From: Albidovulum sediminis | GTDB taxonomy: Bacteria; Pseudomonadota; Alphaproteobacteria; Rhodobacterales; Rhodobacteraceae | NCBI RefSeq assembly: GCF_025380365.1 | Contig: NZ_JAOCQF010000002.1 | Coordinates: 390,846-454,845 of the forward strand | Length of the DNA: 64,000 bases | Reading direction: 5' to 3' | In this document: piece after piece, positions 41,723 to 57,417 of the stretch | Position numbering within the stretch: position 1 is the first letter of the stretch | How the letters are laid out: the number at the start of each line of letters is the position of its first letter | Translations under genes and position numbers: made by a program | The notes under the pieces: model-generated | Databases searched by the model: none | What the model saw: only the letters and a program-made list of their open reading frames with translations | What the model was told of the DNA's origin: nothing

Positions 41723-43192
41723 ATGACGACGAAATCCGCATCGGAAACGTTGGAGCGGCGGTCGGGTCCGGCCGCGGGATCGCAAGGCTGGAGTGCCGCG
41801 GCCGAACGCGGCGACGCGCCGCTTCTGCCCTCCGAAAGGCTCTGGGGCTTCAAGGAGTTCACCTTTGCGAACTCCGCGCTCGCCATCGCCACCTGGGCCT
41901 TCCTGATCGGCGGCGCCGTCGGCCTGTTCGTCGGCCCGAAGGAAGGCATCGCCGCCATCGTCATCGGCAACATCTTCGGCGTCGTCCTGACGGCGCTCGC
42001 GACCACGGTGATGGCCGGGCGCTACGGGGTCGAGCAGTTCGTAGCACTCCGCAGCCAGTTCGGCTACAACGGCAGCCGGCTGGTCTACCTGCTCGCCGTC
42101 ATCGTCCTGACGATGGGCTGGCTTGCCGTCCTTGCGATGATGTTCGGCCGCTCCATCGACGGGCTGACCGCGCTGGCCAGCGGGGGGGAGGCATCGCCCC
42201 TCGGGATCAAGGTCGCCATCGCCTCGGTCGGTGCGATCCTGCTGACCTGGTTCATCGTCGCGCGCGGCCCGACCTCGATCAAGGTCTTCAACATGATCGT
42301 CGCGCCGGCCCTCGTGCTTCTGATGGTCGCGATGCTCTGGCTCATCCTCAGCCGGCACAGCTTCGGCGATCTGATGGCGATGGAGGCGCTCGACCCGCCG
42401 TTCGAGGACAGGCACCTGAACTTCATCATCGCGATCGAGATCAACATGGCGGCGGGCTTTTCCTGGTGGCCCTACATCGGCAACCTCGCCCGCCTGACCC
42501 GGAACGAGCGGACGGCCTTCTGGCCGAACATCCTCGGCATCTTCGGGGCCGCCGTGCTGGGCGAGATCGTGGGACTGCTGGCGGCGGTCGCGCTGGGCGA
42601 CAGCGATCCGACGATCTGGATGACGCAGATCGCCGGCGTTGCTGTGGGGGTCGTTGCGCTGGGTTTCATCGCCTTCGCCAACATCACCTCGATGGCGAAC
42701 ATCCTCTACACCTCGATCGTCGGGCTGCGTCAGGTCGGCACCGAGGGGCTTCGCCGGCTTGGCTGGGGAACGATCCTGTTCGGGTTCTGTATCATTCCCC
42801 TGATCCTGGTTCTGGCCTACCCGCAGATGTACGACGGCTTCTTCATCTTCCTCGTCTGGACCTCGGCGCTCAATTCCGCGCTCGCCGGGATCGGGATCGC
42901 CGACTACTTCTTCCTGCGCCGCCAGCGGCTTGACCTCCGGGCGCTGCACGGGCCGCAGGAACACGGAAGCTACCGGTTCATCGGAGGCTTCAACCCGATC
43001 GGGCTTGTGGCGCTTGCCATCGGGTTCCTGACCTATGTCTGGCTCTTCAACCCCCAGACGCTCGATAACGTCGCGGCCTTCCGCTACCTGACCGCGTCGC
43101 TGCCGTCCTGCGTCATCGCGGGGCTTGTCCACTACGTCCTGACGCGGCTCTTCGCACACGGCCGGCATTGGGGCGATTACCCGCGCGGCTGA
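41723..43192 (+). CDS. NCS1-family permease (nucleobase/hydantoin/allantoin type)
   Basis: This 489-aa membrane protein has about 12 segments and NCS1 traits: the entry region [42 protein letters not shown] and [23 protein letters not shown]1 carriers import nucleobases, hydantoins, allantoin or related ring compounds, usually with Na+ or H+. It is the probable importer of this operon's substrate. Confidence 0.86.
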
Positions 43193-43200
43193 CACCCCAA

Positions 43201-43227
43201 CGGCAGGCGCCTCGTGTGCGCCTGCCG
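43201..43227 (+). other. 10-bp-stem hairpin between permease and GMC genes
   Basis: CGGCAGGCGC and GCGCCTGCCG form a perfect stem with a 7-nt loop in the 83-bp gap. It could be a terminator for the permease or a spacer that lowers expression of the GMC gene. Confidence 0.5.
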
Positions 43228-43275
43228 ATCATCCCGAAACCATCATCACATCCCGAACGACAGGGAGGGAACGCC

Positions 43276-44970
43276 ATGAGCAAGTCCTTCGACTACATCA
43301 TCATCGGTGCCGGTTCGGCCGGATGCGTCCTTGCGAACCGGCTGAGCGAAGACCCGGCGACGCGCGTTCTGGTCCTGGAGTACGGCGGTTCGGACAAGTC
43401 GATCTTCATCCAGATGCCGACGGCGCTGTCGATTCCGATGAACGGCACCAAGTACAACTGGAAATACATGACCCTGCCGGAACCCGGCCTCGACGGGCGG
43501 CAGGTGCATTGCCCGCGCGGCAAGGTGCTGGGGGGGTCATCCTCGATCAACGGGCTGGTCTACATGCGCGGCCATGCCCGCGACTTCGACGAATGGGAAT
43601 TGCTCGGTGCAAGGGGCTGGGGCTATGCGCATTGCCTGCCCTACTTCCAGCGTGCCGAGGCCTGGAAGGGCGGCGGCGACGAATGGCGGGGGGGCGGCGG
43701 CCCCCTGGCCACGAACGCCGGCAACGAGATGCGCAACCCGCTCTACCGCGCGTTTGTCGAGGCCGGGCGCGAGGCGGGATACGTCACCACCGACGATCCC
43801 AACGGCCATCTGCAGGAAGGCTTCGGCCCGATGCACATGACGGTGAAGGACGGCCGCCGCTGGTCGACCGCCAATGCCTATCTGAAACCCGCGATGAGCC
43901 GGCCGAACCTGACCGTCCTGACCCATGCCATGACGCGGCGGGTGATCCTCGAGGGCAAGCGCGCCGTCGGGGTGGAGTACGATCACGACGGCCAGCGCCA
44001 TGTCGCGCGGGCCGCGCGCGAGGTGCTGATCGCCTCCGGCCCCATCGGCGCGCCGCATCTTCTTCAGCGGTCCGGCATCGGCCCCGCCGAGGTGCTGCGC
44101 AAGGCTGGGGTCGAGGTCCTGCACGACCTTCCGGGCGTGGGCGAGAACCTTCAGGACCATTCTGAGGTCTACATCCAGTATGCCTGCAAGGAGCCGATCA
44201 CCCTGAATGGCAAGATGGGGCTTTTCAGCCGCTTTCTCATCGGCGCCGAATGGGTGCTGTTCAAGCGCGGGCTTTCGGTGACGAACCATTTCGAAAGCGG
44301 CGGCTTCATCCGCTCGGACGCGTCGCTGGAATGGCCGGACATCCAGTTCCACTTCCTGCCCGCAGCGATGCGCTACGACGGCAAGAAGCCGCTGAAGGGC
44401 CACGGCTTCATGGTCCTGACCGGGCCGAACAAGCCGAAGAGCCGGGGCCATGTGCGCCTGCGCTCGGCCGACCCCTACGAACAGCCCGACATCCTGTTCA
44501 ACTACCTCTCGCGCGAGGAGGACCGGGAAGGGTTCCGCCGCTGTCTGCGCCTGACGCGCGAGATTGTCGCCCAGCCCGCCTTCGACCGCTTCCGCGGCGA
44601 AGAAATCGCCCCCGGACAAGAGGTGCAGAGCGATGACGAGATCGACGCCTGGGTGCGTGAGACGATGGAAAGCACCTATCACCCCTGCGGCACCTGCCGG
44701 ATGGGCGAGGACGCGATGGCGGTGGTGGACAGCACGCTGAACGTGCGCGGGATCAAGCGGTTGCGGGTGATCGACAGTTCGGTTTTCCCGACCGAGCCGA
44801 ACGCCAACCTGAACGCCCCGACGATCATGCTGGCGGAAAGGGCGGCCGACATCGTGCGCGGGCGCCCGCTTCTGGCGCCGTCGAACGCGCCGGTGGGGCT
44901 GGCCCCGGGCGCGGGGAAGACCCAGCGCAGCGGTGCCCCCGTCCGGGCAGGACAGGTGCCGCGCCGCTGA
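43276..44970 (+). CDS. GMC oxidoreductase, choline-dehydrogenase type
   Basis: This 564-aa flavoprotein has the N-terminal FAD site [16 protein letters not shown], the GMC signature [18 protein letters not shown] and the BetA-like active-site [12 protein letters not shown]. Choline dehydrogenase is the closest family, but the operon has no betB or betI, so another primary alcohol is possible. The C-terminal 35 residues are low-complexity. A GGGAGGG ribosome-binding site precedes the ATG. Confidence 0.82.
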
Positions 44971-47573: not shown

Positions 47574-48485
47574 TTAGCTCACGTCTTGCGGATGCAGCGA
47601 GCGCAAGACCTCCCAGACGGCAACCTCGGCCCGCCCCGCCGCGCCGGCCAGCCGTACCGCGGTCACCTGAAGATCGCAGGACGGCAGCCGGGATGACAGG
47701 TCGACAAGACCGCCGCGCTGCACATGCGGCGCGGACAGCGACGCCGGCACCCAGGCCACGCCTATTCCCACGGCCGCCATCTCCAGCGCGGCAAGCGTCA
47801 GCGCGGTCTCGACCTTCGGCACCACGCCCGCGGCCAGGCCCAGACGTGGCATGATCTCCCTCTCGAACACCTGGCCGAAGAAGACTTCGGCCGGATAGGC
47901 GATGACGGGAAGCCCCTCCGGCAGGCGCGCAGTCTCGATAATGCCGACGGCGGCGCGGCTGCAAACGGGGATCAGCCGGTCCATGCCGACCGGGAGCGTT
48001 TCGATATAGTCGGCTTCGATCGGATGCTCGTTGCCGTGAATGCGGTAGACCAGCGCGATATCGGCCTGTCGTGCCAGCAGCATCGCAAAGCATTCATCGA
48101 GGTTGGCGGAGCGCAGGCGGACGAAAACATCCTCGTGCCGGGCCTGGACCGACTGGAGGATGGCCGGGGTCAGGGCGGTCGTCAGGGCATGCTGGCTTGC
48201 GATGACAAGGCGGTTCGCGCGGCGGCGGTCGCCGCGACGCAAGTCCGCCAGAAGCTGACGCAGAAGCGAGGCCGCAAAGACGATACGCTCGCGCTGGTCC
48301 TCGGTCGTCGGGCGCAGTTGCACCGGCTTGCGCGCCCGGTCGAACAGTTCGGCCCCGACGTAGTCCTCGATGATGCGGATCCTGCGCGAGAAGGCGGACT
48401 GCGTCAGATGGCGCCGCTCCGCCGCTTCGGAGAATGATCCCGTCTCCGCAACCGCAAGGATGTCTTCCAGCCATTCCAGCCGCAT
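47574..48485 (-). CDS. LysR-family regulator next to cuyA (CuyR-like)
   Basis: This 303-aa protein begins [36 protein letters not shown], a typical LysR helix, followed by an effector domain. The ATG at 48483-48485 was chosen over an upstream in-frame start. It is divergent from the cysteate sulfo-lyase gene, the arrangement described for cuyR/cuyA in Ruegeria pomeroyi, so a sulfonate is its likely inducer. Confidence 0.8.
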
Positions 48486-48497
48486 CTCGCCCCCTCT

Positions 48498-48583
48498 AAC
48501 TTGCACAACTTGCAACATAGATCAAAAATTTCGAATTTGCATTGCACAATACGGGGTGCGAACCTTGAAACACGCAAGTTGCA
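48498..48583. promoter_or_regulatory. Repeated TTGCA elements in the LysR-cuyA gap
   Basis: TTGCA occurs five times (48501, 48510, 48537, 48542, 48579). AACTTGCA is repeated directly at 48498 and 48507, TTGCACAA at 48501 and 48542, and CAACTTGC (48506-48513) has its reverse complement at 48574-48581. This looks like an array of regulator sites serving both divergent promoters. Confidence 0.6.
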
Positions 48584-48596
48584 GAAGGACAGCACC

Positions 48597-49616
48597 ATGC
48601 ACCTCGCCCGGTTTCCGCGTATCTTTCTCGCCCACCTGCCGACGCCGCTCGAACGTCTCGACCGCCTGTCGAAGGAACTTGGCGGGCCCGAAATCTGGAT
48701 CAAGCGCGACGATTGCACCGGCCTGTCGACGGGCGGAAACAAGACCCGGAAGCTTGAGTTCCTGATGGCCGAAGCCGAGGCGATGGGCGCTGACGTGGTG
48801 ATGACGCAGGGCGCGACCCAGTCGAACCACGCCCGCCAGACCGCCGCCTTCGCGTCGAAGCTGGGGATCAAGTGCCACATCCTGCTCGAGGACCGGACGG
48901 GGTCCAAGGATCCGAACTACACTGGCAACGGCAACGTCCTGCTCGATCACCTGCACGGCGCCACCACGGAGACCCGGGCGGGCGGCCTTGACATGAACGC
49001 CGAGATGGAAGCCGTGGCCGACCGGCTGCGGCGCGACGGCAAGAAGGTTTACACCATCGTCGGCGGCGGATCGAACCCGACAGGGGCGCTGGGCTATGTC
49101 AACTGCGCCTTCGAGCTTGTCGGCCAGGCCAACGACCGCGGGCTTGCCATCGACCACATCGTCACCGCGACGGGCAGTGCGGGAACCCAGGCCGGGCTTG
49201 TGGTCGGCCTCAAGGCGATCAACGCGGGGATCCCGCTGACCGGCTTCGGCGTTCGCGCGCCGAAGGCCCGGCAGGAGGAGAACGTCTTCAACCTCGCCCT
49301 GACGACGGCAGAGAAGCTCGGCTGTCCCGGTGTCGTTTCGCGTTCGGACGTGGTGGCCGATTGCGACTATGTCGGCGCCGGCTATGGCATCCCGCGGGAG
49401 GATACGATCGAGGCGATCCGCATGTTCGCGGAGCTTGAGGGCATCCTGCTCGACCCGGTCTATTCCGGCAAGGGGGCGGCAGGGCTGATCGACTATTGCC
49501 GGAAAGGGCGGTTCCGCAAGGGCGAGCGTGTCGTGTTCCTGCACACCGGCGGGGCGGCGGCGCTGTTCGGTTACGATTCCGTCTTTTCCCAAAGCCGGCG
49601 GATCGCGGCGGAGTAG
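48597..49616 (+). CDS. cuyA: L-cysteate sulfo-lyase (D-cysteine desulfhydrase family)
   Basis: This 339-aa fold-type II PLP enzyme has the family start [21 protein letters not shown], the PLP lysine in [12 protein letters not shown] and the [14 protein letters not shown] phosphate loop. CuyA of Ruegeria pomeroyi cleaves L-cysteate to pyruvate, ammonia and sulfite. The N-terminal half resembles CuyA more than ACC deaminase or DcyD as I remember them, and the sulfonate genes downstream support it. Desulfhydration of D-cysteine is the alternative. Confidence 0.82.
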
Positions 49617-49618
49617 CC

Positions 49619-50824
49619 ATGGCGCCCCCCAGGTTCACTGGCAGCTTCACACAGCAGGAACCGATCCCGGAGGCGGGGATCGAGGCCGCGGTTGCGGTGA
49701 TGCGTTCGGGGCGGCTGCATCGTTACAACGTGGCCCCGGGCGAGGCTTCGGAAGCCTCGGCGCTGGAGCGGGAGTTCGCGCTCTGGCAGGGCGCGCGCTA
49801 TTGCCTGGCGGTCGCCTCGGGCGGTCAGGCCATGCAGATCGCCCTGCGCGCCGCGGGCGTCCGGCCGGGCGATCCGGTGCTGACCAACGCCTTCACCCTG
49901 GCGCCGGTGCCAGGGGCCGTCGCGGCCGCGGGGGCGCAGCCCGTGCTGGTCGAGATCACCGAGGATCTGGTGATCGACCTGCAAGATCTGGGCGCCAAGG
50001 CGCGGTCGTCGGGCGCGCGGCATCTGCTCCTGTCGAACATGCGCGGGCATCTGTGCGACATGGAGGCGCTGATGGCCATCGCCGCCGCCGAAGGTGTGAC
50101 GGTGATCGAGGATTGCGCCCACACGATGGGCGCGACCTGGAAGCGGCGCAAATCGGGCGGTTTCGGCCTGGCCGGGTGTTTCTCGACGCAGACCTACAAG
50201 CACATCAACTCGGGCGAAGGGGGGCTGCTGACGTCGGACGACGCCGAGTTCATCGCGCGCGCCACGATTCTGTCGGGCAGCTACATGCTTTACGAACGTC
50301 ATGGCGCGGGGCCCGCTCCGGAAACCTATCAGGACATCCGCCTGGATACGCCGAACATGTCGGCGCGAATGGACAACCTTCGCGCCGCGGTTCTGCGTGC
50401 CCAGTTGCCCCTGATCGACGACAGGATCGACCGCTGGAACCAGCGCCACGATCGCATCGCGCGGCATCTGTCCGGCCACAACGCGATCCGCCTTCCGCAC
50501 CGCCCGGCCGCCGAAGGCTACGTCGGCTCCTCGATCCAGTTCACGGTCCCGGGCATCCGCCCGGAAGCAGCCCGCGCCTTCCTTGCGGAGACGGCCGCCA
50601 GGGGTGTCGAGGTCAAGTGGTTTGGCGCGGCCGACCCGGTCGCCTTCACCTCGGCGCACAGCAGCTGGCGGTACGTTCCGCGCCAGTCGCTTCCGGCGAC
50701 CGACCGGATCCTGTCGGGCCTGTTCGACATGCGCCTGCCGCTGACCTTCAGCCTTGAGGATTGCGACCAGATCGCCGGCCACATTCTGGAGGCCGCCTCC
50801 GTCGTCCTGGAAGACACGGCATGA
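49619..50824 (+). CDS. DegT/DnrJ/EryC1-family PLP aminotransferase
   Basis: This 401-aa fold-type I enzyme has the DegT pattern: acceptor region VASGGQAMQIAL, aspartate in IEDCAHTMGATW and the Schiff-base lysine in STQTYKHINSGEGG. Family members usually aminate keto-sugars, often with glutamate. Here it starts 2 bp after cuyA and overlaps the racemase start, inside a C3-sulfonate operon, so a sulfonated keto or aldehyde substrate is plausible. That substrate is inferred from position only. Confidence 0.8.
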   Translation: MAPPRFTGSFTQQEPIPEAGIEAAVAVMRSGRLHRYNVAPGEASEASALEREFALWQGARYCLAVASGGQAMQIALRAAGVRPGDPVLTNAFTLAPVPGAVAAAGAQPVLVEITEDLVIDLQDLGAKARSSGARHLLLSNMRGHLCDMEALMAIAAAEGVTVIEDCAHTMGATWKRRKSGGFGLAGCFSTQTYKHINSGEGGLLTSDDAEFIARATILSGSYMLYERHGAGPAPETYQDIRLDTPNMSARMDNLRAAVLRAQLPLIDDRIDRWNQRHDRIARHLSGHNAIRLPHRPAAEGYVGSSIQFTVPGIRPEAARAFLAETAARGVEVKWFGAADPVAFTSAHSSWRYVPRQSLPATDRILSGLFDMRLPLTFSLEDCDQIAGHILEAASVVLEDTA

Positions 50825-51537
50825 GGCGCGTCGGCATCCTCGGCGGAATGGGACCAGAGGCGACGGTGCTTCTCATGCAGAAGTTGCTGGCGGCGGTACC
50901 CGCGGCCGACGACGCCGATCACGTGCCCCTGATCGTGGACCAGAACCCCCAGGTCCCCTCGCGCATCCGCTTCCTGCTCGAAAGGGGCGGCGAGGATCCG
51001 GGCCCGGTGCTGGCCGGGATGGCGCGGCGGCTGGAACAGGCCGGGGCCGAGGCGCTTGCCATGCCCTGCAACACCGCGCACCACTTCGCCCCCGCCATTC
51101 GGGCTGCGACGCGCCTGCCGTTCCTTGACATGGTCGCGCTTTCGGTTGACCGTGCGGCCCGGTTGGCGGGGAAAGGGGGTCGGGTCGGCATCCTCGCGTC
51201 CCCCGCGGTGCAGAAGGTCGCGCTTTTCGAGGGTCCGTTCGCGGCGGCGGGCCTGACACCGGAATACCCGGAAGATCAGGCGGCCCTGCTGGCGGCGATC
51301 CGGCGGATCAAGGCCGAGGGCCCCGCCGAGGACGCGCGGAACACCCTGCGCGCCGCATCCCGGGACTTGCTTGCCAGGGGCGCGCAGGTCCAGATGATCG
51401 CCTGCACCGAGTTTTCGCTGATCGCGGACTCGGTGGCAGAGGGGGCACAGGTCTTCGACACGCTCGATGTTCTGGTCGAAGCCATCAGGGAATTCGCGAT
51501 CGGCAACAGCGCGAAGAAACGGCAGGCGGCGGGATGA
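50821..51537 (+). CDS. Aspartate/glutamate racemase-family protein
   Basis: This 238-aa protein keeps both catalytic cysteines of PLP-independent racemases (AMPCNTAHHF and MIACTEFSLI) and begins MRRVGILGGMGPEATVLLMQ, as in YgeA/RacX-type amino acid racemases. It could interconvert D- and L-cysteate or act on a sulfonated analogue of aspartate. The ATGA overlap with the aminotransferase couples the two genes. Confidence 0.83.
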   Translation: MRRVGILGGMGPEATVLLMQKLLAAVPAADDADHVPLIVDQNPQVPSRIRFLLERGGEDPGPVLAGMARRLEQAGAEALAMPCNTAHHFAPAIRAATRLPFLDMVALSVDRAARLAGKGGRVGILASPAVQKVALFEGPFAAAGLTPEYPEDQAALLAAIRRIKAEGPAEDARNTLRAASRDLLARGAQVQMIACTEFSLIADSVAEGAQVFDTLDVLVEAIREFAIGNSAKKRQAAG

Positions 51538-51579
51538 CCGCCTGACGGCGAGACAACACTGACAAGGAGGGAAACAACC

Positions 51580-52566
51580 ATGTTGAAGACACTCAAGTAT
51601 CTTGCGATCGGCGTTTCGGCTTCCGCGCTCATGGCGGGGTCTGCCCTGGCCGAGAAGATCATCATCGGGCATTTCGGCAACCCGACGCCGATGCAGCTGC
51701 TCGCGTCCTCGGACGCCCTGCAGCAGGAAACCGGCTGGGAGATCGAGTGGCGCAAGTTCGCCGCCGGAACCGACGTCATCGCGGCGATGGCATCGGGCGA
51801 TGTCGTGCTGTCAGAACTCGGCTCCTCGCCGCTCGCCATCGCGGCGAGCCAGGGGGTCGATCTGCAACTCATCGCGTTTTCGGACGTCATCGGCAAGGCA
51901 GAGTCGCTGATCGCGCACGAGGGCTCGGGCATCGCAAGCACCGCCGACCTGAAGGGCAAGCGCATCGCGGTGCCGGTCGGATCGACCGCCCACTTCTCGC
52001 TCATGGGGGCGCTTCAGCACGAAGGCATCGCCGAGGCCGATGTCACGATCATGAACATGCCACCCGACCAGATCGCCGCCGCGTGGGAACAGGGCGTGAT
52101 CGACGCGGCCTGGATCTGGCAGCCGGTCCAGTCCGAGATCCTGAAGACGGGCACGTTTGTCCTTGGCGCCGACCAGACGGCGGAATGGGGCTTTCCGACG
52201 TTTGACGGCTGGGTGGTGGATCGCGAGTTCGGCCAGGCCAACAAGGACAAGATCGTGGCCTTCCTGAAGGCGATCGACCAGGCCAACGCCTCATACCTGA
52301 AGGATCCCGCGGCCTGGACGGTCGACAGCGCCGAAGTGGAGACGCTGGCCACCGCGACGGGTGCCGACCCCGCGCAGGTGCCGGAAATCCTCGAAGGTTT
52401 CACCTTCCTGCCGATGGCGACGCAGGTCAGCGATACCTGGCTTGGCGGCGCCGGCGCGACCATCAAGGGAACGGCCGACTTCCTCAAGTCTGCGGGCCGC
52501 ATCGACGCGGTTGTCGACGACTATTCCGGCTTCGTAAATGCCGAGTATGCTGAGGCTGCGAAGTAG
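51580..52566 (+). CDS. Periplasmic binding protein of a sulfonate ABC transporter, TauA-like
   Basis: This 328-aa protein has a signal peptide (residues 1-24, ending SALA) and TauA-like segments: WRKFAAGTDVIAAMASGDV, LGSSPLAIAASQGV, LKGKRIAVPVGSTAHFSL and AAWEQGVIDAAWIW. E. coli TauA binds taurine. The location between cuyA and hpsN-type genes suggests cysteate, DHPS or a related sulfonate. An AAGGAGG ribosome-binding site precedes the ATG. Confidence 0.86.
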   Translation: MLKTLKYLAIGVSASALMAGSALAEKIIIGHFGNPTPMQLLASSDALQQETGWEIEWRKFAAGTDVIAAMASGDVVLSELGSSPLAIAASQGVDLQLIAFSDVIGKAESLIAHEGSGIASTADLKGKRIAVPVGSTAHFSLMGALQHEGIAEADVTIMNMPPDQIAAAWEQGVIDAAWIWQPVQSEILKTGTFVLGADQTAEWGFPTFDGWVVDREFGQANKDKIVAFLKAIDQANASYLKDPAAWTVDSAEVETLATATGADPAQVPEILEGFTFLPMATQVSDTWLGGAGATIKGTADFLKSAGRIDAVVDDYSGFVNAEYAEAAK

Positions 52567-52577
52567 GATCGCAGGTG

Positions 52578-52603
52578 CCCGGGCCCCGCTGTCGGGGCCC
52601 GGG
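52578..52603 (+). promoter_or_regulatory. Intercistronic hairpin after the TauA-like gene
   Basis: CCCGGGCCCCG and CGGGGCCCGGG form a perfect 11-bp stem over a CTGT loop in the 60-bp gap. It should protect the binding-protein mRNA and reduce read-through into the ATPase and permease genes. Confidence 0.65.
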
Positions 52604-52626
52604 ACCGCCGAGGAAAGGACACGCGC

Positions 52627-53415
52627 ATGGGGCTGACCATCAACCAGGCCTCGGTCGTCTATCCCGCCGCGGATGGCCGCCCCCCGGTCGAGGCGCTGAG
52701 CCGGATCGACCTTGCCATCGACAACGACGATTTTGTCGTCGCACTCGGCGCTTCGGGATGCGGCAAGTCGACACTTCTGAACCTGATCGCAGGCTTCCTG
52801 TCGCCGACTTCCGGCGAAATCCTGCTGGACGGGCACAGGGTGCAGGGGCCGGGCGCCGACCGGGCGGTGGTCTTCCAGAAGCACGCGCTCCTGCCCTGGC
52901 TGAACGTCATCGACAACGTCGCCTTCGGCCTGAAGCTGCAGGGGGGCGCCGAAAAGGCGCGTTACGAGATGGCGGGAAGGTTCATCGCCCTGCTCGGGCT
53001 CGACGGTTTCCAGAACTCGCCGGTCTACAAGCTCTCGGGCGGGATGCAGCAGCGCGTCGGCATCGCGCGGGCGCTCACCTGCGACCCGAAGGTGCTGCTG
53101 ATGGACGAACCGCTGGGCGCGCTCGACGCGCTGACGCGCGAGAAGGCGCAGGAACTGATCCTGCGGATCTGGAGCGAGACGCACAAGTCGGTGTTCTTCA
53201 TCACGCACTCGGTCGAGGAGGCGCTGTTCATGGGGACCAAGCTTATCGTGATGTCGCCGCGTCCGGGGCGCATCGCGCACCGCTTCGACCTTTCGTTTTC
53301 CCGTCAGTTCCTGGCCGGGCAGAGTGCCAGGCAGGTGAAGGCCTCGCCCGAGTTCATCCGCCTGCGCGAACAGGTCCTGGAGATCATCTTCGCCGATGAG
53401 GAGGACGCCGCATGA
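52627..53415 (+). CDS. ATP-binding protein of a sulfonate ABC transporter, TauB-like
   Basis: This 262-aa ATPase has Walker A GASGCGKST, Q-loop VFQKHALLPWLNV, signature LSGGMQQRVGIARAL, Walker [13 protein letters not shown] and the switch histidine in FITHSVEEA. The LLPWLNV segment is typical of nitrate/taurine/sulfonate importers. Its stop overlaps the permease start. Confidence 0.88.
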   Translation: MGLTINQASVVYPAADGRPPVEALSRIDLAIDNDDFVVALGASGCGKSTLLNLIAGFLSPTSGEILLDGHRVQGPGADRAVVFQKHALLPWLNVIDNVAFGLKLQGGAEKARYEMAGRFIALLGLDGFQNSPVYKLSGGMQQRVGIARALTCDPKVLLMDEPLGALDALTREKAQELILRIWSETHKSVFFITHSVEEALFMGTKLIVMSPRPGRIAHRFDLSFSRQFLAGQSARQVKASPEFIRLREQVLEIIFADEEDAA

Positions 53416-54320
53416 GCGAGCGCGCCAGCAAGGAGACCGTACCCGGAGCCGGTGCGCCCTCAGCACCGCCCCCCGCCAACGCGCGCGCCGGGGCATTCTC
53501 CCGGCTGACCCGGTCACGCCCCACCCGCCCCGGCGAGGTCTACGGCGTTCCGGGCCAGGGCGACGCCTTCTGGCTTTCGCTGGGTTCCATCGCCTTCATC
53601 ATCTTCCTGTGGTGGCTCGTGACCTTCCTGGGCTGGGTAAAACCCCTCTTCGTGCCTTCGCCGGGTGCTATCATCGCCAAGTTCGTGGACGTCTGGCAGA
53701 ACGGCTTCACCAACACCTCGTTCGTCGAACACGTCTGGATCTCGACCGCGCGCGTCTTCGGGGCGTTCCTGCTGGCCTGCGTCGTCGGCATTCCGCTGGG
53801 CATTGCGATGGGGATGAGCCCCACGGTGCGCGGGATATTCGACCCTCCGATCGAGTTCTACCGGCCGATCCCCCCGCTGGCCTATCTGCCGCTGATGATC
53901 ATCTGGTTCGGCATCGGGGAAACATCCAAGGTGCTGCTGATCTTCCTCAGCGTCTTCGCGCCCGTGGCCCTTGGCTCGCGCTCCGGCGTGCGGTCGGCCG
54001 CGATCGAGCAGATTCACGCGGCCTACTCCTTCGGCGCCACGCGCTGGCAGGTCATGCGGCACGTCATCCTGCCCTCGGCCCTGCCGGAAATCCTGACCGC
54101 GATGCGCATCGGGATCGGGTTCGGCTGGACCACGCTGGTCGCGGCGGAAATGGTCGCCGCGACCAAGGGGCTTGGCTACATGGTCCTCTCGGCCAGCCAG
54201 TTTCTCCAGACCTCGACTGTCATCATGGGCATCGTCGTGATCGCCGCGATCGCCTATGCCTTCGACCTCCTCATGCGCTTCGTGGAGCGCAAGGTTGTGC
54301 CCTGGAAGGGCCGCATGTGA
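53412..54320 (+). CDS. Permease of a sulfonate ABC transporter, TauC-like
   Basis: This 302-aa permease has about six membrane segments, a long Pro-rich cytoplasmic N-terminus and the coupling loop AAYSFGATRWQVMRHVILPSALP. EFYRPIPPLAYLPLMIIWFGIGE is typical of TauC/SsuC. It would form a homodimeric pore with the TauB-like ATPase. Confidence 0.88.
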   Translation: MSERASKETVPGAGAPSAPPPANARAGAFSRLTRSRPTRPGEVYGVPGQGDAFWLSLGSIAFIIFLWWLVTFLGWVKPLFVPSPGAIIAKFVDVWQNGFTNTSFVEHVWISTARVFGAFLLACVVGIPLGIAMGMSPTVRGIFDPPIEFYRPIPPLAYLPLMIIWFGIGETSKVLLIFLSVFAPVALGSRSGVRSAAIEQIHAAYSFGATRWQVMRHVILPSALPEILTAMRIGIGFGWTTLVAAEMVAATKGLGYMVLSASQFLQTSTVIMGIVVIAAIAYAFDLLMRFVERKVVPWKGRM

Positions 54321-54329
54321 GCTACGACC

Positions 54330-55646
54330 ATGACCGTGACCTATCTGAAGAAGGCGGGGCGCACCGCTGAAACCGACCAGCCGGACGTGCGCGCCGCGGT
54401 AGAGCGGATGCTGGCGGAGATCGCCAGCGGCGGCGATGACGTGGCCCTGCGGCTGGCGCGGGACCTGGACAAGTGGGACGGGGAGATCGTCGTCACGCAG
54501 GACGACATCCGCGCCGCCAGAGATCGCGTGCCCGAAAAGCTCAAGGCAGACATCCGTTTTGCCCACGACAACATCCGGCGGTTCGCCGAGGCGCAGCGCG
54601 CCACGATCCACGACTGCAGCGTCGAGATCCTGCCGGGGCTGACCGCTGGCCAGCGCCAGATCCCGGTGCAGGCCGCGGGATGCTACGTGCCGGGCGGGCG
54701 CTACAGCCATATCGCAAGCGCGATCATGACGATCACCACCGCCAAGGTCGCCGGTGTTGCGCATGTGTCGGCCTGCTCCCCCCCGCGACCCGGCGCGGGC
54801 ATCCCGCCCGCGATCCTCTACGCCATGGACCTCTGCGGCGCCGACACCGTCCTGAACCTCGGCGGCGTGCAGGCGGTTGCGGCGATGGCCAACGGTCTTT
54901 TCGGTCTCCCGAAGGCCGACATCCTGGTCGGCCCCGGCAACCAGTATGTCGCCGAGGCGAAACGCATCCTTTACGGCCAGGTCGGGATCGACATGTTCGC
55001 CGGCCCGACCGACTCCATGATCGTCGCCGATCGGGGCGCCGATCCCGTCCTTGTCGCCTGGGATCTCGTCGGTCAGGCGGAACACGGCTACAACTCGCCC
55101 GTCTGGCTGGTGACGACGGACCGCGCGCTGGCGGAGCGGGTGATGGCCTTGGTTCCCGGCCTGATCGCGGAACTGCCCGAGGTGAACGCCCGCAACGCCC
55201 GCGCCGCCTGGGAAAGCTACGCCGAGGTGATCCTGTGCGACGCCGACGAGGAAATGGCAGGGGTCGCCGACGCCCATGCGCCCGAACATCTTCACGTTCA
55301 GGCCGCCGACCTCGACTGGTGGCAGGGCCGCCTGATGGCCTACGGCTCGCTCTTCCTCGGCGAGGAAACGACCGTGGCCTACGGCGACAAATGCGCAGGG
55401 CCGAACCACGTCCTGCCCACCTCGGGGGCCGCGCGCTATACCGGCGGGCTGTCGGTCCACAAGTTCATGAAGACCGTCACCTGGCAGCGGGCAACGCGCG
55501 AGGCGTCCCGCGCGCTCGGCATCGCCACCGCACGAATTTCCCGGCTGGAAGGGATGGAGGGGCACGCCCGCACGGCCGACGTGCGCCTGGCCAAGTTCTT
55601 CCCGGGCGAGACCTTCGATCTCGGCCCCTCCGACGACCCGACCTGA
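54330..55646 (+). CDS. hpsN: Sulfopropanediol 3-dehydrogenase, HpsN-like (HisD homologue)
   Basis: This 438-aa protein is a histidinol-dehydrogenase homologue. It keeps the HisD zinc and catalytic pattern (GPTDSMIVAD, VGQAEHGYNSPV, DAHAPEHLHV, GPNHVLPTSGAA, MEGHARTADVRL). HpsN of Ruegeria and Cupriavidus oxidises (R)-2,3-dihydroxypropane-1-sulfonate to (R)-sulfolactate. The MTVTYLKKAG start and YGSLFLGEETTVAYGDK agree with HpsN rather than biosynthetic HisD, and no his genes are near. It starts 9 bp after the permease gene. Confidence 0.83.
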   Translation: MTVTYLKKAGRTAETDQPDVRAAVERMLAEIASGGDDVALRLARDLDKWDGEIVVTQDDIRAARDRVPEKLKADIRFAHDNIRRFAEAQRATIHDCSVEILPGLTAGQRQIPVQAAGCYVPGGRYSHIASAIMTITTAKVAGVAHVSACSPPRPGAGIPPAILYAMDLCGADTVLNLGGVQAVAAMANGLFGLPKADILVGPGNQYVAEAKRILYGQVGIDMFAGPTDSMIVADRGADPVLVAWDLVGQAEHGYNSPVWLVTTDRALAERVMALVPGLIAELPEVNARNARAAWESYAEVILCDADEEMAGVADAHAPEHLHVQAADLDWWQGRLMAYGSLFLGEETTVAYGDKCAGPNHVLPTSGAARYTGGLSVHKFMKTVTWQRATREASRALGIATARISRLEGMEGHARTADVRLAKFFPGETFDLGPSDDPT

Positions 55647-56770: not shown

Positions 56771-56904
56771 GGTTCTGTCAAAGCAAATTCCTTGAGGTGG
56801 GCCTGTTGGTCGCCTAGCTTTCCCAAATGACGCAGCGCAGCCGCTTCCGCCACCTCAATACAAGCCCTGAGATCATACGTCTGGCAGTGATGATGTATGT
56901 CTGG
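56771..56904 (+). mobile_element. Left end and transposase stub of an IS6-family element
   Basis: A frame from the ATG at 56827 reads MTQRSRFRHLNTSPEIIRLA then VMMYV, the conserved N-terminus of IS6-type transposases, and then loses similarity. GGTTCTGTCAAAGCAAATT at 56771-56789 fits an IS6 terminal repeat, 56 bp before the ATG. The rest of the element, including the DDE domain, is gone. Confidence 0.65.
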
Positions 56905-57259
56905 TTACCATCCGTCGCTCCGCCGACAAGGTTAAGCACGTTACGTGCGAGGCGCTGAGCAGATGATGCAGGTAAGTGGCCTTGAAGGTGGAAATCTGCT
57001 CAGGTGTCAGTTCCGATAGCACGGGACGCTGCTGGCGAGTCAGTCTGAGCCGATGCTCATCGAGCTTTCTATCCACTTCGACGGCAGCAACCCTGACCCG
57101 GCGAAGAGCTTCGGCGTGGTCACGGGTCTTCAGCGAGAAGGTTTCCTCTCGCTTTCCGTAGGTGGCGACGATGTCTTGTGGGACGGCTGCGCGGTGGTAG
57201 TAGACTGCTCCGCGACGGTAGAGTCGGGTGTGTCCGGGCATCTTCGTCAGGCGCTCCAC
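56873..57259 (-). pseudogene. Truncated tyrosine-recombinase (integrase), N-terminal part only
   Basis: This 128-codon frame begins MERLTKMPGHTRLYRRGAVYYHRAAVP and contains SLKTRDHAEALRRVRVAAVE, the N-terminal domain of phage-type integrases with a DUF6538-like start. It ends before any catalytic Arg-His-Arg-Tyr residues and runs into the IS6 remnant. It lies just 3' of tRNA-Ala in the same orientation, a classic island integration site. Confidence 0.7.

Positions 57260-57341: not shown

Positions 57342-57417
<76 letters not shown>

Follow-up and report, generated by a model that had tools for sequence, protein, structure and literature searches.

The window analysed here, a 64,000-nucleotide stretch of the Albidovulum sediminis genome (contig NZ_JAOCQF010000002.1, positions 390,846 to 454,845), carries at 47574..55646 what looks like a mobile bacterial operon importing a C3 amino-sulfonate. 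In our reading, to which we give about an even chance on sequence grounds, the operon would serve the catabolism of cysteinolate (2-amino-3-hydroxypropane-1-sulfonate), which would be converted via cysteate to pyruvate, ammonia and sulfite; the cluster is best read as a new variant on known sulfonate pathways. We infer the substrate, the reaction of the DegT-family aminotransferase and the order in which it and the HpsN-like dehydrogenase act; the gene families, the conservation of the set, the co-occurrence of its members and the absence of homologues of HpsP, SlcD and SuyB in the window's genome come from sequence comparison itself. The original prediction had suggested, as one explanation of the cluster, that a sulfonate is converted to cysteate by a new route. 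This is now the best reading, as HpsN was found with CuyA and DegT in many genomes, mostly without HpsP and, when hpsN lies in the cluster, always without SlcD.

In the proposed pathway the importer would take up cysteinolate. The HpsN-like enzyme would take the terminal CH2OH through a four-electron oxidation to the carboxylate, in the manner of histidinol dehydrogenase (HisD) acting on histidinol, giving cysteate or its keto acid. DegT would act at C2, interconverting cysteinolate and 3-hydroxy-2-oxopropanesulfonate (HOPS), and the two enzymes would jointly yield L-cysteate, either with the amino alcohol oxidised directly or by way of HOPS, which would be formed by deamination, oxidised to sulfopyruvate and aminated again. 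CuyB would then racemise L-cysteate to D-cysteate, from which CuyA would free sulfite and ammonia, leaving pyruvate.

The product of cuyA (48597..49616, plus strand), a predicted pyridoxal phosphate (PLP) enzyme, is 79% identical to Ruegeria pomeroyi CuyA and scores 543 bits with the NCBIfam equivalog model 'D-cysteate sulfo-lyase' (NF052482, cut-off 450); that of cuyB (50821..51537, plus strand) scores 293 bits with the equivalog model 'cysteate racemase' (NF052483, cut-off 190). By these curated cut-offs the two pass as D-cysteate sulfo-lyase and cysteate racemase, so the pathway would end in cysteate. The NCBIfam D-cysteine desulfhydrase equivalog models score under their cut-offs on the same CuyA homologue. 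We therefore rejected its identification as a D-cysteine desulfhydrase, and a role in D-cysteine desulfhydration, named in the original prediction as a refuting case, is disfavoured. The racemase, part of the arrangement that was unfamiliar to the original prediction, is not an odd partner: CuyB is a described cysteate racemase (Burchill et al., 2024, PMC11382572; this and the other papers are cited from excerpts).

The HpsN-like protein (54330..55646, plus strand), a Zn/NAD alcohol dehydrogenase of the histidinol dehydrogenase fold, finds its best PDB matches in '(R)-DHPS dehydrogenase' (8wwe, 623 bits; DHPS, 2,3-dihydroxypropane-1-sulfonate) and sulfopropanediol 3-dehydrogenase (8v35, 560 bits); the top-scoring histidinol dehydrogenase in PDB reaches 234 bits. 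It keeps the sulfonate-binding motif as GRYSH (GRY(A/S)H, with its sulfonate-binding His, is reported for HpsN; PMC11382572) and the equivalents of CpHpsN H126, E318, H319, D352, K353 and H359; CpHpsN S226 is replaced by Thr, as it also is in DHPS-operon relatives. Judged by its motif and its catalytic Glu, His and Asp, the protein is a predicted HpsN. The sulfonate-binding His is kept in 21/21 cuy-linked HpsN rows. The view already taken in the original prediction, that this is a sulfonate operon, is supported. The genome of the window holds two genes of HpsN's Pfam family, the operon copy and one on contig C11 (549 bits); the latter is taken as the real HisD, and the operon copy, with its sulfonate motif, was rejected as a true histidinol dehydrogenase. 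On an HpsN tree (built without L047, whose HpsN is in pieces, and L063, whose HpsN is in pieces or partial) the window's protein groups with other cuy-linked HpsN, in a 20-row group of weak support (81/56) with a well-supported 16-row core (100/97); L040 falls outside this group and keeps the sulfonate-binding His too. Thirteen alignment columns split cuy-linked from hpsOP-linked rows, one of which (49) is near NAD-binding residues; at the known active-site residues checked, no discriminating change was found in cuy-linked HpsN.

The aminotransferase (49613..50824, plus strand) belongs to the DegT/DnrJ/EryC1/StrS family (Pfam PF01041, 185 bits, above cut-off); no NCBIfam model reached its cut-off on it, and a fold search gave general family matches only. 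Its AlphaFold2 model (mean predicted local distance difference test score, pLDDT, 89.6) has keto-sugar and related aminotransferases as nearest folds. Among 104 orthologues, 98 positions are at least 97% invariant, including K196, which from the family motif we take to be the PLP lysine. A DegT subgroup special to cuy clusters was considered and rejected, as no column separates the 40 cuy rows from the 64 others. Because of this invariance and the lack of a separating column, one DegT reaction probably serves all gene contexts. The contexts vary: L083 (Paracoccus sp. UBA889) places DegT, with a TauABC-like importer, next to an HpsN-HpsO-HpsP-ComE-TRAP cluster without cuyAB (TRAP, tripartite ATP-independent periplasmic transporter), L044 and L045 combine DegT, hpsN and an importer without cuyAB, and L043 has DegT with ProXVW alone. 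An aminotransferase interconverting cysteinolate and HOPS would fit all four; a sulfopyruvate aminotransferase would suit L083 too, and L044 and L045 less easily.

Downstream of DegT and cuyB, the plus-strand run continues with three importer genes. The TauA-like periplasmic binding protein (51580..52566) barely passes the taurine model TIGR01729 (312 bits, cut-off 304) and matches the PDB taurine-binding protein 6ssy (E 1.8e-61), and in this it resembles the TauABC taurine importer. The TauB-like ABC ATPase (52627..53415; NF008421, 329 bits) and the TauC-like ABC permease (53412..54320; NF007545, 315 bits), unlike those of TauABC, fall under the taurine equivalog cut-offs of 357 and 342, and the three subunits do not pass together as a taurine importer.

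Co-occurrence was counted in 385 class genomes at identity thresholds of 52% for DegT, 56% for HpsN and 59% for CuyA, chosen after the lists had been inspected. A DegT at 40% (G138), DegT paralogues at 37–39% and CuyA-like rows below 59% were dropped before counting, and HpsN rows at 43–52% were dropped as HisD or other without being checked one by one. As these counts use the first 4 or 5 candidates per genome, absences in them are less sure than those of HpsP, SlcD and ComC-like proteins below. DegT was found in 21 genomes, HpsN in 29, CuyA in 19 and CuyB (above cut-off) in 22. HpsN was present in 18/21 DegT genomes vs 11/364 without DegT (Fisher p 1.2e-20, uncorrected for phylogeny), the latter being the 11 class genomes with HpsN and no DegT, and the two genes coincide in 11 of the 13 families holding DegT. 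Of the 19 genomes with CuyA, 8 carry DegT and every one of these has HpsN; the 11 lacking DegT also lack HpsN (p 1.3e-5), and their cuyA stretches contain neither gene. This pairing of HpsN and DegT in CuyA genomes supports cysteinolate catabolism, with the genes scattered in three of the eight (G154, G252, G335) and HpsN apart in one (G176). Ten class genomes combine DegT and HpsN in the absence of a CuyA at 59% (a CuyA-like protein at 55–56% is present in three), so DegT tracks HpsN rather than CuyA.

HpsN seems to work here outside the classical DHPS route. HpsP, HpsN, SlcD and ComC-like proteins were searched for in 54 genomes (L055, L057 and L065 set aside) with queries from L175 and L168 named by eye and context, the SlcD query coming from L175. 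HpsP was present in 2 (L047 and L050) of the 21 genomes whose cuy cluster includes hpsN, and was not found at E 1e-60 in the window's own genome, which is one of the 21 (31/31 candidates scored). SlcD was found in 0/21 (E 1e-90, by-eye query, in a search that covered SlcD and not SlcC), so the HpsN product would have to reach CuyB and CuyA without it. A ComC-like protein was present at ≥47% identity in 5 of the 21 and at 36–40% in 4, among them the window's genome with 39%; at E 1e-40 none was found in the remaining 12/21. SuyB, whose family we take to be PF04295, had no match in the window's genome, the one genome searched. The routes from sulfolactate to cysteate thus appear mostly missing, which also favours cysteinolate. 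The 10 genomes having the cluster without hpsN (in two of which, L056 and L064, DegT is not accompanied by a full cuyA) present the opposite picture: HpsP is present in 8, each of which also carries HpsN outside the cluster, next to HpsP (p 2e-4 for the contrast). No HpsO match was found in the 31 cuyA-bearing DegT loci described below, the search having covered the loci and not whole genomes. The cluster therefore appears to depend on HpsN while doing without the other DHPS-route enzymes, and the HpsN product would pass to CuyB and CuyA with no SlcD involved; oxidation of cysteinolate to cysteate fits best.

The combination of HpsN with CuyA is by itself not new. The original prediction held that the two normally belong to separate routes; they are joined in the 'CuyA pathway', where SlcD and an aminotransferase connect HpsN to cysteate lyase (PMC11382572). 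What is unusual is HpsN with a DegT-family aminotransferase in the absence of HpsP, SlcD or, in the window's genome, SuyB. The survey in that paper was restricted to HpsN genes that have hpsO and hpsP in their vicinity, and clusters of the present type would for that reason lie outside it.

The same gene set occurs in other genomes, as a neighbourhood check suggested in the original prediction brought out across genera and classes. The DegT-anchored sample comprised 100 loci, namely 20 stretches from class genomes and the best 80 of 118 named loci, some stopping at a contig end (L055 among them). Full-length cuyA was present in 31/100 (L064, with a partial CuyA under the length filter, is not counted), cuyB in 30 of these 31 (not in L072), hpsN in the same stretch in 22 and a CuyZ-type YeiH gene in 11; 57/100 had none of the other queried genes. 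The importers of the 31 loci are TauABC-like in 17, ProXVW-like in 8, TRAP in 1 (L040, by eye) and unrecognised at our thresholds in 5. Exchange of the TauABC-like for a betaine-type ProXVW-like importer suits a zwitterionic substrate, and together with the abundance of cysteinolic acid, which can rank among the most concentrated osmolytes of microalgae (PMC8703288), it favours cysteinolate. cuyA, DegT, cuyB and hpsN stand together, in shuffled gene orders, on plasmids of alpha-, beta- and gammaproteobacteria, including those of Ensifer, Leisingera and two Paracoccus. The order is LysR-CuyA-YeiH-HpsN-DegT-TRAP-CuyB in Pseudomonas sp. MPC6 and TauABC-HpsN-DegT-CuyA-YeiH-CuyB on a Polaromonas plasmid, with HpsN in two open reading frames (ORFs; L248 7596-9000). 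As gene order is shuffled and importers are swapped, we regard the genes as a functional set. Neither R. pomeroyi nor Phaeobacter inhibens has DegT, CuyB or HpsN at its plain cuyA locus.

The two-ORF HpsN of Polaromonas does not appear in the listed annotation, the annotation table itself being incomplete. An alpha/beta hydrolase gene lies between hpsN and a YeiH-type exporter gene in Ensifer (L246 15022-15858) and P. alcaliphilus (L251 15060-15836); it might free the substrate from an ester or amide.

HisD, a relative of HpsN, oxidises the amino alcohol histidinol to the carboxylate, and by analogy HpsN might do so with cysteinolate. The crystal structure of CpHpsN with L-cysteate, bound as sulfolactate is (PMC11382572), may be taken as a further analogy in favour. 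Several points weigh on the other side. L-cysteate is a weak inhibitor of CpHpsN (IC50, the half-maximal inhibitory concentration, 2.4 mM; PMC11382572). Cuy-linked and DHPS-operon HpsN do not differ at the known catalytic and sulfonate-binding residues, and DHPS is thus a possible substrate. Direct oxidation of cysteinolate by HpsN would leave DegT without an evident function. Natural cysteinolate is D and HpsN is R-selective, which makes direct oxidation awkward, and it is partly for this reason that the HOPS variant is kept. HpsN is missing from 3/21 DegT class genomes and, of the five glm-linked named genomes tested, from four (L082, L087, L097 and L105; L100 has an HpsN at 65%), neither HpsP nor HpsN (at E 1e-130) was found in the genomes of L064 and L067, and hpsN is in pieces in L047. 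The TRAP importer of the alphaproteobacterial L040 and gammaproteobacterial L247 clusters suits anions too. The scope of the SlcD and HpsO searches given above counts on this side as well.

A DHPS route would be the compact form of the published CuyA pathway: HpsN would convert R-DHPS to R-sulfolactate, an unlinked dehydrogenase would give sulfopyruvate, DegT would give L-cysteate, and CuyB and CuyA would finish. The pathway is in print, and R. pomeroyi genes for its aminotransferase and racemase are listed there as unknown (PMC11382572); the identity of active-site residues and the ComC-like proteins (≥47% in 5 of the 21 genomes, 36–40% in 4, the window's included) also speak for this route. 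We nevertheless consider it rather unlikely, with HpsP missing in 19/21 and SlcD in 21/21 of the genomes with hpsN in the cluster, 12/21 without a ComC-like protein, and DegT accompanying HpsN in the ten class genomes without CuyA at 59%. DegT-family enzymes are moreover usually keto-sugar rather than keto-acid aminotransferases, with which the nearest structures agree. The published CuyA pathway (HpsNOP, SlcD, an aminotransferase and CuyA; PMC11382572) resembles the cluster in joining HpsN to CuyA, but the window's genome is without SlcD or HpsP and has its DegT aminotransferase and racemase genes in the same operon. The hpsKLM-hpsNOP DHPS operon (R. pomeroyi, C. pinatubonensis; L175) is likewise similar in its HpsN, that of L175 being 69% identical with the known catalytic residues kept; it differs in its importer, in the HpsP and HpsO that the window's genome and the cuyA-bearing loci, respectively, do not match, and in that cuyAB here lies within the operon.

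Parallel scavenging, in which the importer would bring in cysteate for CuyB and CuyA and, separately, R-DHPS or cysteinolate for HpsN and DegT, co-regulated but not in series, appears improbable. CuyB and CuyA do make a complete cysteate route alone (PMC11382572), and the LysR gene and intergenic region resemble the R. pomeroyi cuyA locus. That locus, cuyRAZ of R. pomeroyi DSS-3 (SPOA0157-0159), is alike in its divergent LysR (44%), CuyA (79%) and intergenic region, but has no DegT, CuyB, HpsN or ABC importer and carries a TRAP transporter upstream. The idea leaves unexplained both the pairing of DegT with HpsN in CuyA genomes and the contrast between hpsN in the cluster and HpsN beside HpsP elsewhere. 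A non-sulfonate role, such as use of D-cysteine or a related amino acid with histidinol-like oxidation of an amino alcohol, is highly improbable: RefSeq labels most plasmid homologues D-cysteine desulfhydrase and histidinol dehydrogenase, but the CuyA model passes where the desulfhydrase equivalogs fail, the sulfonate-binding His is kept throughout the cuy-linked rows, and CuyZ-type genes recur in the clusters.

If cysteinolate is the substrate, the cluster gives marker genes for cysteinolate flux, DegT is a candidate aminotransferase joining three sulfonate pools, and HpsN-like genes in metagenomes are not all to be counted as DHPS degradation. We tentatively consider it possible that the cluster is the first genetically defined pathway of cysteinolate catabolism, with DegT as a general C2 aminotransferase linking the cysteinolate, DHPS and cysteate pools. 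In a bolder form, HpsN would oxidise HOPS to sulfopyruvate, and the operon's own enzymes would suffice for D-cysteinolate use, with no need of HpsO, HpsP or a sulfolactate dehydrogenase. If cysteinolate is not the substrate, DegT is still a candidate for the aminotransferase listed as unknown by Burchill et al. (PMC11382572). In the open-access literature, which leaves most subscription papers outside so that absence from print is not shown, we found no genes for cysteinolate breakdown and no recognisable description of the cluster.

In about 29 of the 100 DegT loci, counted by eye, glmS and glmU-like genes lie upstream, and many Rhodobacteraceae, e.g. L082, have a DegT orthologue, standing alone, near or downstream of such genes. 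A roseobacter aminolipid carries cysteinolic acid as its head group (PMC11631085), and published accounts treat the biosynthesis of such lipids as not established (PMC8319176, PMC11631085). The glm-linked orthologue might supply this head group.

The eight genes sit where the original prediction placed them, in the families it named, as coordinates and profile and structure matches confirm. The head-to-tail run described there holds for the seven genes from cuyA to hpsN; the LysR gene (47574..48485; Pfam HTH_1 and LysR_substrate) is on the minus strand, divergent from the operon. The predicted junctions of 4-bp overlaps or gaps below 61 bp also held. DegT starts at GTG 49613, overlapping cuyA by 4 bp, or at ATG 49619, and its end overlaps the cuyB start by 4 bp. 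Gaps of 42 bp and 60 bp precede the binding-protein and ATPase genes, the ATPase and permease genes overlap by 4 bp, and hpsN follows after 9 bp.

The CuyR-like LysR protein is 44% identical over 296 aa to the LysR beside cuyA on the R. pomeroyi megaplasmid, which is named cuyR (PMC4334477). A putative LysR operator, TGCACAACTTGCA (48502..48514, no strand assigned), lies in the divergent intergenic region. Its pattern TGCR-N3-7-YGCA, picked after the sequences had been inspected, occurs in 26/34 LysR/cuyA intergenic regions, in 24 of these at -91 to -97 from the cuyA ATG, against a mean of 1.05 and a maximum of 5 regions in mononucleotide shuffles. The R. pomeroyi region, among the 8/34 without the pattern, has no exact match. 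Promoter and terminator scans gave matches at chance level.

Elsewhere on the contig, upstream of the window, an Xsc (sulfoacetaldehyde acetyltransferase) gene (G000:C13:363670-365400) scores 936 bits against a cut-off of 676, a match that makes degradation of a C2 sulfonate such as taurine probable in this organism as well. At 41723-44970 a gene with a weak NCS1 symporter match (under cut-off) is followed by one for a GMC oxidoreductase, which passes the choline dehydrogenase model (770 bits, cut-off 732). Beyond hpsN, a 128-aa ORF (56873-57259, minus strand), by eye like the N-terminal part of a phage-type integrase, lies beside a tRNA-Ala gene (57342-57417, minus strand) inside a 2-kb block of lower GC content (0.61); the two are perhaps the scar of an integrated element adjoining the operon.

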